From Anaerolineae bacterium (GTDB lineage: Bacteria > Chloroflexota > Anaerolineae > Aggregatilineales > Phototrophicaceae), in contig JAJECX010000001.1 in NCBI GenBank assembly GCA_022821805.1, forward strand, positions 248,001-312,000: 64,000 nt of DNA, written 5' to 3'. The translations under genes were made by a program, and so were the position numbers. How positions within the stretch are numbered: position 1 is the stretch's first letter; each line of letters begins with the position of its first letter. Shown here in pieces: positions 33,108-38,215 of the stretch. The notes under the pieces are model-generated. The model saw nothing but the letters and a program-made list of their open reading frames with translations. It did no database searches and was not told the origin of the DNA.

Positions 33108-33929
33108 ATGGCGATTGATTACATCATCGAGTGGGACTGCATCCCCAAACGCGAATTGACCGCGGACGGCATCCGCGAGCGCTTGAAGGAGCGCGCGCGC
33201 GCCCACGAGGTGATTCAGTGGTTTCGCGCCGCCGGTGATTCGCGGGCGCCAGCGCAAATGGGCTTTGAGTTCAGTCACAGCACGCCTGGTGAGCCCGGCG
33301 ACAAACAGCTAATCGTCGTGCAGGACTTGCTCGACCACGCTGCGGTGCTTGACGACTACGCGGAGCATTGCGCGTCCTGCCCGGCGAATCGCAGCGGACA
33401 GCCCTTTGGCTGCATGGGATTCATTCAGTATCCGATCACGGCGCAGGCTGAAACCTGGCTGCTTGAGCGTCTGCCAGTGCCGGATGAGCCGCTGGTATGG
33501 CTTCTGCTGAAGCAGGGAATCCAGCGGCTGGGTTATGACGGAGCTTCTGTCAGGGAACTGCGCGAAGCCGATGGCGTCGTCGATGCCGCTGAGCGCGCCT
33601 ATTTCGAATTGCCGAACGCGCCTGTGCGCCGCCTCGGCGAACTGCGCGTATCAGGCGATCAGGCGCTCGAAATGATCTTCGGCGTTGGCGAGCGCATCAT
33701 ACCCAATCACGCCGGCATCCTGCTGCTGTTTTTGGGCGCCATTGATCGTGACCTGGAAGCGCAGGAGATACAGGAAATCTCGTCCTTTGTCGATGACATA
33801 CGCGAGCGATTCGCCTTCGAGATGACCGCCAGCGCCGATGCCGACAATTGCATCCAAGAATTGCTATCATTCTTCCGCGCTTTGCACCTCGCCTGGAAGC
33901 TCAACGTCTCGCTTTTTGTGGACGCCTGA
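33108..33929 (+). CDS. Unrecognised protein with a Cys cluster, next to AhpD-like selenoprotein
   Basis: 273 residues, cytoplasmic by appearance, with no recognised family. The most distinctive segment is C-x2-C-PAN-x7-C (Cys88, Cys91, Cys102), which could bind a metal or act in thiol chemistry. The N-terminus MAIDYIIEWDCIPKREL and several acidic helices are otherwise plain. It ends 21 bases before the AhpD-like selenoprotein gene on the same strand, so the two are probably cotranscribed. A TATACT box lies near 33063. Confidence 0.6.
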   Translation: MAIDYIIEWDCIPKRELTADGIRERLKERARAHEVIQWFRAAGDSRAPAQMGFEFSHSTPGEPGDKQLIVVQDLLDHAAVLDDYAEHCASCPANRSGQPFGCMGFIQYPITAQAETWLLERLPVPDEPLVWLLLKQGIQRLGYDGASVRELREADGVVDAAERAYFELPNAPVRRLGELRVSGDQALEMIFGVGERIIPNHAGILLLFLGAIDRDLEAQEIQEISSFVDDIRERFAFEMTASADADNCIQELLSFFRALHLAWKLNVSLFVDA

Positions 33930-33950
33930 TTGGCGGGTTAGACAGCCGCG

Positions 33951-34538
33951 ATGAATACGATGCGTAAACCGGTAGCCTGGATCGAAACCGTGCCCGAAGC
34001 CGAGGCGACGGGCGAGATCAAGCGAGCCTATCGCCGCGCTGCTGACGCCAATAGCGGCCAGGTCGATCACATCATGAAGATCCACAGCCTGCATCCGGCA
34101 TCCCTCGTCGATCACATGCATCTCTACAAGACCTTGATGTACGGCGAATCGCCCCTGACGCGGATACAGCGCGAGATGATCGGCGTCGTGGTATCCGCCA
34201 TCAATCGCTGCGAATACTGACTGAAGCATCATGCGCGCAACCTCCGTCAGTTGACTGGAGATCGGGAAATCACCGCCTGCATCGAGGCTGACTACCGCGA
34301 CGCCGAGCTAACGGCGGCCGACAGAGCGATGCTGGACTATTCCGCCAAGTTGACGCGGGAGCCTTGGGAAATGACCGAGGACGATCTGCGACTGCTGCGC
34401 GCTCGCGGATTCAGCGATCGGGGGATACTGGATATTGTGCAGGTTGTCGCTTATTACGCTTACGTCAATCGGATCGCCGACGGCTTGGGCGTCTCGCTGG
34501 AGAGCTATTGGGCGGAAGGGAAAGAGGACTACGACTAG
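33951..34538 (+). CDS. AhpD-like peroxidase-related selenoprotein, in-frame TGA = Sec90
   Basis: Read through the TGA at 34218-34220, the frame gives 195 residues, the normal size of AhpD-like peroxidase-related enzymes. The TGA falls exactly on the second residue of the redox motif: NRC-E-Y-U-LKHH, where the family has CxxC followed by HH, giving Cys87 and Sec90. Coding continues uninterrupted after it with family-typical LTAADRAMLDY, DRGILDIVQVVAYYAYVNR and LGVSLE. A hairpin with G in its loop lies about 29 bases past the TGA. Function: thiol/selenol peroxide reduction, possibly with the thioredoxin-like protein downstream. The alternative, a nonsense-mutated pseudogene, is less likely. Confidence 0.85.
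34242..34260 (+). promoter_or_regulatory. Bacterial SECIS-like hairpin in the AhpD-like gene
   Basis: CTCC (34242-34245) pairs with GGAG (34257-34260), then G-T-C (34246-34248) with G-A-C (34253-34255), with one bulged T (34256) and apical loop AGTT (34249-34252). Loop G at the second position and loop distance of about 29 bases after the TGA match the bacterial SECIS pattern (16-37 bases, G among the first two loop bases). A bulged U is also a feature of the E. coli fdhF element, there on the other arm. Confidence 0.7.
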
Positions 34539-34540
34539 CC

Positions 34541-34681
34541 TTAGCCCCCGCGCGCAGCGAAGGCGAGCAGAACGAGCACGGTCAATATGATGCCGATGGC
34601 GGCGACCGCGTAGAACTTGGCGAATAGCTTGCGGGCATCGGAGCCCTCGCGGAAAATATCGGCTAGTTTCAAGCGAAACAC
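34541..34681 (-). CDS. Possible 46-residue single-span membrane protein
   Basis: From GTG 34681 the frame encodes a short amphipathic N-terminus (FRLKLADIFREGSDARKLFAK) and one strong membrane helix (AVAAIGIILTVLVLLAFA) ending in ARGG. A longer frame to ATG 34726 adds 15 unremarkable residues. The hydrophobic helix followed by basic residues is typical of small bacterial membrane peptides. It is convergent with the AhpD-like gene, two bases from its stop. No family is recognised and it may be spurious. Confidence 0.4.
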   Translation of the reverse strand: MFRLKLADIFREGSDARKLFAKFYAVAAIGIILTVLVLLAFAARGG

Positions 34682-34804
34682 CTGCGAATGTGATTCCGAT
34701 ATGTTATACCAGTAGCATAGCCGCATTCTGTCGCTCTATCAACGTGTTACGATACGACAGACCAGAAATGACCATGATCAGCGAACGCAAGGGCAAATGA
34801 ATTC

Positions 34805-36250
34805 ATGTCCGTCATCGCGAAAGACTACAACGGTTTCATTGCGGTCTTGAAGCGCGACTGCGCCACCTGTCGGCTGATTGAGCCCGCCATTCTCGAGTTG
34901 ACTCGCGCGACCCAACTGCAAGTTCACTCGCAGGATGATCCTTCATTCCCCGAAAGCGTCGCCGATGTAATCGACGAGCGCGAATTAGAATTGTCCTATC
35001 GCCTCGACATTGAAGTTGTGCCCACGCTGATCCGCGTTCACGACGGTAAAGAAGCGGCGCGGCTGACCGGTTGGCAGCGCGATGAATGGCGCCAACTGAC
35101 AAATCTGCCGGCGCTCGGCGCCAACCTGCCGGAATTCAGCCCCGGTTGCGGATCAAAATCGGTGGAACCAGGCATGCCCGAGAGGCTGGCTTTCAAGTTT
35201 GGCGAAACCCAGCTTCAGGCGAGGCGGGTAGAGGTGGCATCGCAGCAAGACAAATACGAGCAGATGTACGAACGTGGCTGGTCGGATGGCTTGCCGGTTG
35301 TGCCGCCGACTGAGCAGCGGGTGCTGAAAATGCTAGCGGGAACGACAAGATCGCCCGCCGAAATCATCGGCGTCGTCCCGCCGGACAATGTGCCCTGCAC
35401 CATTGAGAAGGTCGCGATCAACGCGGTCATGGCTGGCTGCAAGCCGGAGTATTTGCCGGTTGTGCTGGCGGCGGTGGAAGCGGCTTGCCTTGATGAATTC
35501 TGCATGCACGGAGTGCTGGCGACCACCTACTTTTCTGGTCCGATCGTCATCGTCAATGGACCCATCGCCGAAAAGATCGGTATGAATTGGGGACATAACG
35601 TCTTGGGGCAGGGCAATCGCGCCAATTCCACCATCGGTCGCGCGTTGCAATTGGTGATCCGCAATGTCGGCGGCGGAAGACCGGGCGGCGTCGACCGCGC
35701 CACGTTGGGGCAGCCGGGCAAAGTCGGCTTCTGCTTCGCCGAGCGCGAGCGCGATTCCTATTGGGAGTCGTTAGCTGTCGAACGCGGCTTCAGCGTGGAT
35801 GAATCCACGGCGACGCTTTTTGCTGGCGGCGGCGTGCACCCCTCCGGCGATCAGAAATCACGGCGGCCCGAATCGCTGACGCGCAGTTTGGCGTTGACTC
35901 TGCGAACGGTCCGCCACGGTAAAATTTACGGCGCGACTGATGCATTGCTTGTCGTCTCGCCGGAGAATATGCGCGTATTTCGCGATGCCGGCTGGTCCAA
36001 AGCGCGCTTTCGCCATGCGCTTGATGCGGCGTTGACGGTTGAAGGACACGATGTGATTGCCGGCGCTGACGGCGTCGACGAGGGCATGCCGGCGCATCTG
36101 GCGCAGAAACGCTTGTCCAAGTTTCGTCCGGGAGGCTTGCTAATCGTACACGCCGGCGGCGGCGCGGGCATGTGGTCGGCGGTCATCACCGGCTGGGCGG
36201 GCAGCGGACCCAAAGGCAGCGTCCCAGTAACCGTCGCAATCAAATCGTAA
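34805..36250 (+). CDS. Thioredoxin-like CxxC domain fused to a UGSC-associated C-terminal domain
   Basis: 481 residues. The first 100 form a thioredoxin-like fold: FIAVLKRDCATCRLIEP carries the CxxC (Cys19, Cys22) and VVPTLIRVHDGKEAARLTGW contains the cis-Pro segment. From about 155 onward there is a second domain that I know only as a conserved, uncharacterised region found near UGSC-type (seleno)protein genes: GLPVVPPTEQRVLKML, GVVPPDNVPCTIEKVA, GGGRPGGVDRATLGQPGK and a Gly-rich AGGGAGMWSAVITGW near the end. It probably passes electrons to, or works with, the selenoprotein encoded next. The start is the only plausible ATG; a good ribosome site is not evident. Confidence 0.7.
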   Translation: MSVIAKDYNGFIAVLKRDCATCRLIEPAILELTRATQLQVHSQDDPSFPESVADVIDERELELSYRLDIEVVPTLIRVHDGKEAARLTGWQRDEWRQLTNLPALGANLPEFSPGCGSKSVEPGMPERLAFKFGETQLQARRVEVASQQDKYEQMYERGWSDGLPVVPPTEQRVLKMLAGTTRSPAEIIGVVPPDNVPCTIEKVAINAVMAGCKPEYLPVVLAAVEAACLDEFCMHGVLATTYFSGPIVIVNGPIAEKIGMNWGHNVLGQGNRANSTIGRALQLVIRNVGGGRPGGVDRATLGQPGKVGFCFAERERDSYWESLAVERGFSVDESTATLFAGGGVHPSGDQKSRRPESLTRSLALTLRTVRHGKIYGATDALLVVSPENMRVFRDAGWSKARFRHALDAALTVEGHDVIAGADGVDEGMPAHLAQKRLSKFRPGGLLIVHAGGGAGMWSAVITGWAGSGPKGSVPVTVAIKS

Positions 36251-36336
36251 TAAATGTGGGAAGAAAATGGATTCAAGACTGTTACGGCTAAAACTGCAAA
36301 CAGAATGAGAATTCTTACACTTGTGGAAAGTTGTAG

Positions 36337-36378
36337 GGGCGAGAGGCGGTTAGTGTCTACGCTACCCTTGTCTCGCCC
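36337..36378 (+). other. Structured hairpin upstream of the UGSC selenoprotein gene
   Basis: An 8-bp outer stem GGGCGAGA (36337-36344) / TCTCGCCC (36371-36378) encloses a second 7-bp stem (about 36348-36355 with 36360-36366, one bulge, loop TCTA). It lies about 90 bases past the thioredoxin-like gene and 70 before the next ATG. It may be a terminator or a 5' leader structure. A TGCTATAGA extended -10-like box follows at 36384-36392, which favours terminator plus new promoter. Confidence 0.45.
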
Positions 36379-36448
36379 GCCCTTGCTATAGATTTTCAGT
36401 CACTGATCGCAAGTCGAGTTTAGTTCAAATGCGAATGAGGAGAATAAC

Positions 36449-36964
36449 ATGTCTTCACTTTTAGATCCAACGAGCGAATTGCAGCCGGTGCGGCGGGACG
36501 CGCTTCCGCGCCCACGCTCTTTAAGCGACAAGCGCGTCGCCTTGCTCGACATATCGAAACCGCGCGGCGATGTCTTCCTCGATCATCTGGAGGCGCGGCT
36601 GGGCGAAATGGGCGTCGACTCGCGACGCTATAGCAAGCCCACCTTCACGCGGGTGGCGCCGGTTGACCTCAAGCATCAAATCGTTAGCGAGTGCGACGTT
36701 GTCATTGAGGCGCTCGCCGATTGAGGGTCATGCACGTCGTGCAGTGTGCACGACATCACTGACCTCGAATCTCGCGGGATTCCCGGAATGTTCGTCGCCT
36801 CAGACGAATTTGTCGAAGCGGCCGCGGCGCAGGGTAAGTCCTTGGGCTTTGATCCAGCCGTTTGTTATGTGCCGCATCCGATTCAAGACCGCACCGATGC
36901 TGAGATTCGCGCGCTGGCTGATGCCGCCTTTGAGGAGATTCTCTCGCAGATCGTAGCGCCCTAG
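36449..36964 (+). CDS. UGSC-family selenoprotein, in-frame TGA = Sec92
   Basis: Reading through TGA 36722-36724 gives 171 residues with the motif ALAD-U-GSCTSCSVHD, the defining U-G-S-C signature of the UGSC (seleno)protein family (Sec92, Cys95, Cys98). Non-seleno homologues carry Cys at the U position. Upstream: VALLDISKPRGDVFLDHLE; downstream: GIPGMFVASDEFVEAA and FDPAVCYVPHPIQD, both family-typical. A GAGGAGAA ribosome site precedes the ATG. A perfect 8-bp hairpin follows the TGA at the expected distance. The family's reaction is not established; a thiol/selenol redox role is likely given the thioredoxin-like neighbour. Confidence 0.9.
36736..36754 (+). promoter_or_regulatory. Bacterial SECIS hairpin in the UGSC gene
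   Basis: A perfect 8-bp stem GTCGTGCA (36736-36743) / TGCACGAC (36747-36754) with loop GTG (36744-36746). The loop begins with G and lies about 20 bases after the TGA, within the 16-37 base window for bacterial SECIS elements that recruit SelB. Confidence 0.8.
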
Positions 36965-36973
36965 CGCAGACGG

Positions 36974-38215
36974 CTAGTTGTAGCGGCTGATGACTACGGC
37001 GGTATTGTGGCCGCCGAAGCCAAAGGAATTGCTGAGAACGTGGTCGATCTCTTTGGCAACGCCGAAATTGGGCGTGTAGTCGAGATCGCAATCGGGATCG
37101 GGACTGTCCAGGTTAATCGTTGGCGGTATGAAGTTGTCTTGCATCGCCTTCACCGAAAACACCGCTTCCGCCGCCGCTGTCGCGCCCAGGATATGCCCGG
37201 TCATGGACTTCGTTGAACTGATCGGAATATTGTAGGCTTCTTCTGCCAGCGCCTGTTTGATGGCCAGGGTTTCGCTCTTGTCGTTGAGTTGGGTGGCGGT
37301 TCCATGCGCATTGATATAACTGATTTCGCAAGCGCTGATCTTCGCTTCGCGCAGGGCGCGCCGCATCGCCTCGGCCGCATCGACGCCGTCGGGATTGGGC
37401 GCGGTGACATGAAAGGCGTCGGATGTATGGCCGTAGCCGGTTAGCTCGGCATGGATTGGCGCGCCCCGCGCCAGCGCGTGATCCAGGTCTTCAAGGATGA
37501 GCAGGGCGGCGCCTTCTGCGGCGACGAAACCGTCGCGGGTGGCGTCAAAGGGGCGTGAAGCTTTTTCCGGGACATCTTCGGTATTCGTCAGCACTTTCAT
37601 GTTGTTGAAGCCGCTGATCACCATCGGCATGATGCAGGCTTCGCTGCCGCCGGCGACCATGACATTGGCGCGCCCCATGCGGATCAGGTCGGCGGCATCG
37701 CCCAGGGAATTGTTGCTCGTTGCGCAGGCCGCCGTGATATTGTAATTGGGACCTTTTAGCCCGAAGTGCATTGATACGCGTGAACTGATGCCATCATGCA
37801 GCAGCGCGGGCACAATTACCGGGCTGACGCCGCGATGTCCCTTCGCCTCAAAACCTTTCAGCGCCTGGACGACGGTGACGATTCCGCCGATGCCGGAGCC
37901 AACGACCACGCCAACATCGTATTTGTTCTCATCGGTAATTTCGATGCCGGCATCGTTCAAGGCTTCTTCGGCGGCGACCAAAGCCAGCATCTGCGCGCGA
38001 TCCATCCGCCGCATCTCGCGTCTGCCGAAGCGCCCCGCCAGGTCAATGTCCTTGACTTCGCCCGCCACCCGATTTTCAACAAGTTCGGCGTCAAAGAGCG
38101 TAATCCAGTCAATGCCAGATTTGCCCGCGCGGATATTCGCCCAGGAATCGTCCACATTATTGCCAACCGGGCTGACCAGTCCCATCCCAGTGATTGCGAT
38201 TCGCTTTCCCGCCAT
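36974..38215 (-). CDS. fabF: Beta-ketoacyl-[acyl-carrier-protein] synthase II
   Basis: 413 residues, the normal FabF length. The Cys-His-His triad is visible in TAACATSNNS (active-site Cys), INAHGTATQLND (His) and TKSMTGHILGA (His, following the conserved Lys). GFGGHN near the C-terminus is the usual closing loop. It elongates acyl-ACP in fatty acid synthesis in the cytoplasm. It is not in a fab cluster here. The convergent UGSC gene ends nine bases away. Confidence 0.97.
   Translation of the reverse strand: MAGKRIAITGMGLVSPVGNNVDDSWANIRAGKSGIDWITLFDAELVENRVAGEVKDIDLAGRFGRREMRRMDRAQMLALVAAEEALNDAGIEITDENKYDVGVVVGSGIGGIVTVVQALKGFEAKGHRGVSPVIVPALLHDGISSRVSMHFGLKGPNYNITAACATSNNSLGDAADLIRMGRANVMVAGGSEACIMPMVISGFNNMKVLTNTEDVPEKASRPFDATRDGFVAAEGAALLILEDLDHALARGAPIHAELTGYGHTSDAFHVTAPNPDGVDAAEAMRRALREAKISACEISYINAHGTATQLNDKSETLAIKQALAEEAYNIPISSTKSMTGHILGATAAAEAVFSVKAMQDNFIPPTINLDSPDPDCDLDYTPNFGVAKEIDHVLSNSFGFGGHNTAVVISRYN

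Follow-up and report, generated by a model that had tools for sequence, protein, structure and literature searches.

A conserved AhpD-like gene of Chloroflexota with a predicted selenocysteine at its CxxC-type redox motif

Background

AhpD-like selenoproteins with a CxxU motif were described from the Sargasso Sea, where 27 sequences were reported (PMC1088965), and were also found in the GOS data (PMC2398784). A 2026 review counts the "AhpD-like protein, TIGR01926, CxxU" among the established families of selenoproteins (PMC13188914). An initial sequence-only reading of the DNA studied here had referred to such proteins in marine metagenomes. A restriction to marine data does not hold, however, as the listing in the review makes clear. 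The class is thus already known and the gene described below adds a well-supported member to it. Like the known TIGR01926 selenoproteins it combines the family model with CxxU, Sec at the position of the second Cys and a downstream hairpin of the bSECIS type. Unlike them it belongs to a conserved Chloroflexota set with two paralogs per genome and a hairpin sequence that is specific to the lineage.

The active site of the Cys-containing relatives has been mapped in two proteins. The relevant residues are Glu118, Cys130, His132 (in the place of a Tyr), Cys133 and His137 in AhpD of Mycobacterium tuberculosis (PMC3141380) and Glu74, Cys86, Tyr88, Cys89 and His93 in 2PRR (PMC4674687). The literature is divided on which of the two cysteines is the primary one. 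Cys133 of M. tuberculosis AhpD forms a mixed disulfide with its client AhpC, while in Burkholderia thailandensis the first Cys matters more (PMC6626918), and sestrins have retained the first Cys alone (PMC4674687).

The TGA-interrupted gene

The window, i.e. the whole stretch of 64,000 nt that was analysed, contains the following elements:

33951..34538, plus strand: AhpD-like (TIGR01926 peroxidase-related) predicted selenoprotein gene, 195 aa, Sec at residue 90
34209..34211, plus strand: codon of Cys87, the invariant first residue of the CxxU redox pair
34218..34220, plus strand: TGA codon predicted to be read as selenocysteine (U90 of R-C87-E-Y-U90-L-K-H-H94), TGA in 31 of 31 orthologs inspected

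The frame at 33951-34538 comprises 196 codons and is open save for the TGA at codon 90, just as the sequence-only reading had it. This TGA sits at the second Cys of a CxxC-x3-H motif (RCEY-U-LKHH). Under standard translation the gene breaks into two ORFs of 89 and 95 aa; with Sec inserted the product reads MNTMRKPVAWIETVPE...INRCEYULKHHARNLRQLTGD.... When the window was scanned by codon usage for in-frame TGA codons with at least 40 open codons on each side, this one ranked first among 161 candidates. Translation may start at the ATG at 33960 instead of 33951, since many orthologs align from residues 5-8 only.

On the computational evidence the product is almost certainly a selenoprotein. For the reading as a whole, namely an AhpD-fold selenol/thiol oxidoreductase of the TIGR01926 family in which UGA 90 would be translated as Sec, we estimate a probability of about 0.92.

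Family, fold and active site

The protein scored 154.5 bits against TIGR01926 (NCBIfam, peroxidase-related; cut-off 81.8), 48 bits against the Pfam CMD family PF02627 (cut-off 23) and 44 bits against the sestrin family PA26 (PF04636; cut-off 29). It also carries the CxxC-x3-H motif and the Glu and Tyr relay residues of TIGR01926, with which it is therefore classified. The AlphaFold model (pLDDT 95.1, pTM 0.90) showed the all-helical AhpD fold. In a Foldseek search of the PDB 6K40, 3C1L, 2PFX, 2OYO and 2PRR were the best matches (TM 0.83-0.87; about 0.87 for 6K40 and 0.86 for 2PRR), followed by Bmp8, AhpD proteins and sestrin 2. The five best matches, among them 2PRR (YP_296737.1), agree with the window protein in fold, length, CxxC-x3-H and the Glu and Tyr relay, but they are only 26-35% identical to it and their second redox position is Cys, not Sec.

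AhpD of M. tuberculosis shares the active-site helix pair with Cys130-x-x-Cys133-x3-His137 and Glu118 (PMC3141380). Its motif, however, is C-terminal rather than central and lacks Sec, and the window protein reached only 24.9 bits with the model of AhpD sensu stricto (TIGR00777), far below the cut-off of 191.95. Sestrins resemble the protein in the fold of the Sesn-A domain and in the first Cys, the Tyr and the His, but they are eukaryotic two-domain proteins without Sec, and human sestrin 2 has Leu for the second Cys. The AhpD-related (seleno)protein family CFYUT (NF041238, AhpD_rel_CFYUT) has both CxxU and the AhpD core; its model, however, spans 357 aa, and the window protein does not belong to it (59.6 bits, cut-off 175).

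Across 41 sequences there was no variation at C87, at the position of residue 90 or at H94, and very little at E75 and Y89. These five positions (E75, C87, Y89, U90 and H94) make up the active-site set, which was computed here, as were the recoded frame, the Sec machinery and the conservation treated below. In the mechanism that we propose, UGA codon 90 would be decoded by SelB and Sec-tRNA, guided by the hairpin that follows it at 28 nt. Once the all-helical protein has folded, C87 and U90 would be linked reversibly as a selenenyl sulfide, and E75 and H94 (with Y89) would relay protons. The low-pKa selenolate of U90, the counterpart of Cys133 in M. tuberculosis AhpD, might attack an alkyl hydroperoxide or an oxidised peroxiredoxin partner, whereupon C87 would resolve the intermediate. 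The reductant could be a thioredoxin-type or another donor.

The TGA had originally been assigned to the resolving Cys of the motif. Its location at the second Cys stands, but the term "resolving" is not established, because the equivalent Cys133 is the residue that attacks and cross-links the client AhpC (PMC6626918) whereas the first Cys matters more in B. thailandensis.

Family membership makes peroxide or peroxiredoxin-linked reduction the somewhat likelier job of the protein. The same fold hosts several activities, and a selenoprotein of this kind might instead serve some other partner as a disulfide oxidoreductase or, like Bmp8, act as a reductive dehalogenase. The debrominase Bmp8 is indeed among the structural matches (6OHI, E = 1.2e-6, TM 0.76), and no ahpC was seen beside the gene in the conserved neighbourhood. 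On the other hand, identity to Bmp8 is only 15-18%, the protein is closest in both sequence and structure to the five peroxidase-related proteins named above, and five of the five proton-relay positions of AhpD have been kept. We therefore consider a function apart from peroxides unlikely, if a serious alternative. A more specific version would make the protein a Se-dependent reductive dehalogenase or other non-peroxide reductase that employs the Bmp8 fold and uses Sec as deiodinases do, maybe tied to the UGSC protein described below; this seems quite improbable. A search of the literature at hand on selenoproteins of Chloroflexota and on debromination by Bmp8 yielded nothing useful.

Selenocysteine machinery and genetic code

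The interpretation of the gene as a selenoprotein gene presupposes a host that can insert Sec, and the sequence-only reading had named a lack of the Sec genes as a ground for refuting it. The source genome (4.41 Mb in 44 contigs) proved to encode all of them: tRNA-Sec (71.4 bits, anticodon TCA), selA (559 bits, cut-off 268), selB (359 bits, cut-off 242) and selD (382 bits). In SelD (G000:C27:20049-20984) a TGA interrupts the frame at the catalytic position (SCAGUASK), which makes SelD itself a selenoprotein.

Across genomes the association between selA and the form of the AhpD-like protein was weak, selA being present in 29 of 30 genomes with the Sec form and in 9 of 12 with the Cys form. One genome (G248) had a homolog with TGA while selA was not found; this MAG is incomplete (about 84%).

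A frame that stays open past a TGA would also be expected if UGA had another meaning here, either by reassignment (code 4 or 25) or by readthrough with insertion of Trp or Gly. However, 14 of the window's 44 long non-overlapping frames end in TGA as an ordinary stop, the gene directly upstream of the AhpD-like gene being one of them, and on this ground reassignment was rejected. Moreover, residue 90 is aligned with Cys, not with Trp or Gly, and tRNA-Sec, SelA, SelB and SelD are all at hand. Decoding of this UGA as anything but Sec is thus very improbable.

Conservation of the TGA and exchange with cysteine

Of the 34 genomes of the genus, the source genome included, 33 have the gene with exactly one in-frame TGA; the orthologs in the others are 71-91% identical to the window protein. 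The named relatives are MAGs of Chloroflexota/Anaerolineae from several projects. Where codon 90 was read directly it was TGA in 30 genomes of the genus and in one genome from another genus of the family, i.e. in every copy inspected, and in the 30 copies from the genus it was always followed directly by CTG. In ten orthologs the median dN/dS was 0.106 upstream and 0.115 downstream of the TGA, with dS near 1. As the ratio is equal on both sides, selection acts alike on the parts of the gene before and after the TGA. A frame that recurs with its TGA at an identical codon in 30 or more genomes of the genus, with a dN/dS of about 0.11 on either side, is far beyond chance.

Alignment to CxxC homologues, another of the checks proposed at the outset, showed Cys codons at the position of the TGA, as is typical of bacterial selenoproteins. 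A homolog from Latescibacterota (L059, 46% identical) has TGC there, and TGC or TGT was found in twelve further sequences (L069, L071-L076, L079, L083, L084, L086 and L102). Four changes between Sec and Cys are needed to explain their distribution on a 74-protein tree; gain and loss of Sec cannot be separated because the deep branches are weak.

Alternatively, a sequencing or assembly error could have produced the TGA, or the gene could be a pseudogene of a Cys protein, given that one base change yields TGC, that the source genome is in 44 contigs and that the named relatives are MAGs. But every inspected relative has TGA, among them 30 or more genomes that were assembled separately, and this rules out an assembly error. 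Together with the equal purifying selection on the two sides of the codon, the frozen hairpin codons (see below) and the complete Sec machinery, it leaves this explanation a negligible chance.

The genus thus offers well-supported AhpD-like selenoproteins as orthologs, together with a Sec paralog and Cys homologs for comparison, and is well suited to studies of what Sec contributes to the AhpD active site.

The predicted SECIS hairpin

34242..34260, plus strand: predicted bSECIS hairpin, CUCC/GGAG + GUC/GAC, loop AGUU at 34249-34252, bulged U at 34256

The bulged hairpin with G in its loop that had been noticed in the sequence was recovered as a stem of 7 bp, CUCC GUC [AGUU] GAC U GGAG. Its loop starts 28 nt after the TGA, so that the earlier figure of about 29 bases was off by one, and has G at position 2, followed by U. 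The bacterial SECIS model calls for G in loop position 1 or 2, in many cases with G or U after it, and for a distance of 16-37 nt between UGA and loop (PMC13188914). With its small apical loop, the placement of the G and the spacing the hairpin conforms to this model.

All 31 orthologs had CTC CGT CAG TTG as codons +8 to +11 after the TGA (L-R-Q-L). The synonymous diversity of these hairpin codons was 0, compared with a mean of 0.54 for 4- and 6-fold codons elsewhere in the gene. By contrast, the codon after them, which contributes the bulge with its third base, is free to vary (ACT, ACC, ACG). All seven pairs were held in 14 distinct aligned sequences, with one wobble variant; one stem pair was lost in each of three of the 31 orthologs (L043, L046 and L060). 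Since the stem is nearly invariant, no covariation was measurable.

Folding energy, on the other hand, was not significant within the window (z = +0.5), and 13 of 150 synonymous shuffles folded as well. A permissive search also gave hairpins in Cys homologs, but without a fixed place. Because energy does not discriminate, the case for the SECIS element rests on the frozen synonymous sites and the fixed position. An Rfam scan of 33900-37000 returned no relevant family; it gave no SECIS-type match for either of the two TGA codons in this region and is therefore little informative.

The position of the hairpin is not the same throughout the family. Whereas the loop lies 28 nt after the TGA in the clade of the window gene (L020-L049), it lies at 16-18 nt in several others (L061, L063-L065 and L067) and at 24 nt in paralogs such as the one described below (GACCUC-CGUGCC-GAGGUC). 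These different distances suggest that the SECIS element was re-formed in new registers between clades while the Sec codon stayed fixed. Hairpin position and sequence thus differ among clades of one family with the UGA unchanged.

Neighbourhood and further selenoproteins

33108..33929, plus strand: 273-aa protein without known family, ends 21 nt before the start of the AhpD-like gene
36449..36964, plus strand: UGSC-family selenoprotein gene, TGA at 36722-36724; NF041046 149 bits, cut-off 125

The order of the genes is kept in six named relatives (L051-L054, L056 and L057). On the 5' side of the AhpD-like gene lie a glycosyltransferase-like gene, a 282-aa gene and the 273-aa gene, and on the 3' side a short minus-strand ORF, a 481-aa ORF, the UGSC selenoprotein gene and another minus-strand ORF. 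On inspection of their sequences the outermost products look like a glycosyltransferase and a beta-ketoacyl synthase, respectively. The 273-aa gene is conserved in the genus in order and sequence (72-87%), with several invariant Cys residues, and is probably carried on one transcript with the AhpD-like gene. Structure prediction gave a pLDDT of 37 for this protein and the model was unusable.

The UGSC gene lies 2.2 kb downstream of the AhpD-like gene. It has a hairpin of its own, a perfect stem of 8 bp (GUCGUGCA-GUG-UGCACGAC) with the loop 19 nt after the TGA, which was identical in all eight genomes inspected. Owing to the minus-strand ORF between them, the two selenoprotein genes are probably on separate transcripts, and for this reason a functional link between them is a mere possibility.

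The intervening ORF of 61 aa (34541-34726, minus strand) has a hydrophobic C-terminus and is 70-92% conserved in relatives between the AhpD-like gene and the 481-aa gene; it probably encodes a real small membrane protein. The 481-aa protein (34805-36250) has CATC near its N-terminus and a weak match to thioredoxin (E = 0.005), the remainder being without a family. In the relatives examined its gene was always directly upstream of the UGSC gene.

The source genome contains two matches to the CMD family only, the window gene and a second AhpD-like selenoprotein gene (L089, G000:C22:7095-7658). Both are interrupted by TGA. The second protein is 39% identical to the first and has its TGA at the same codon.
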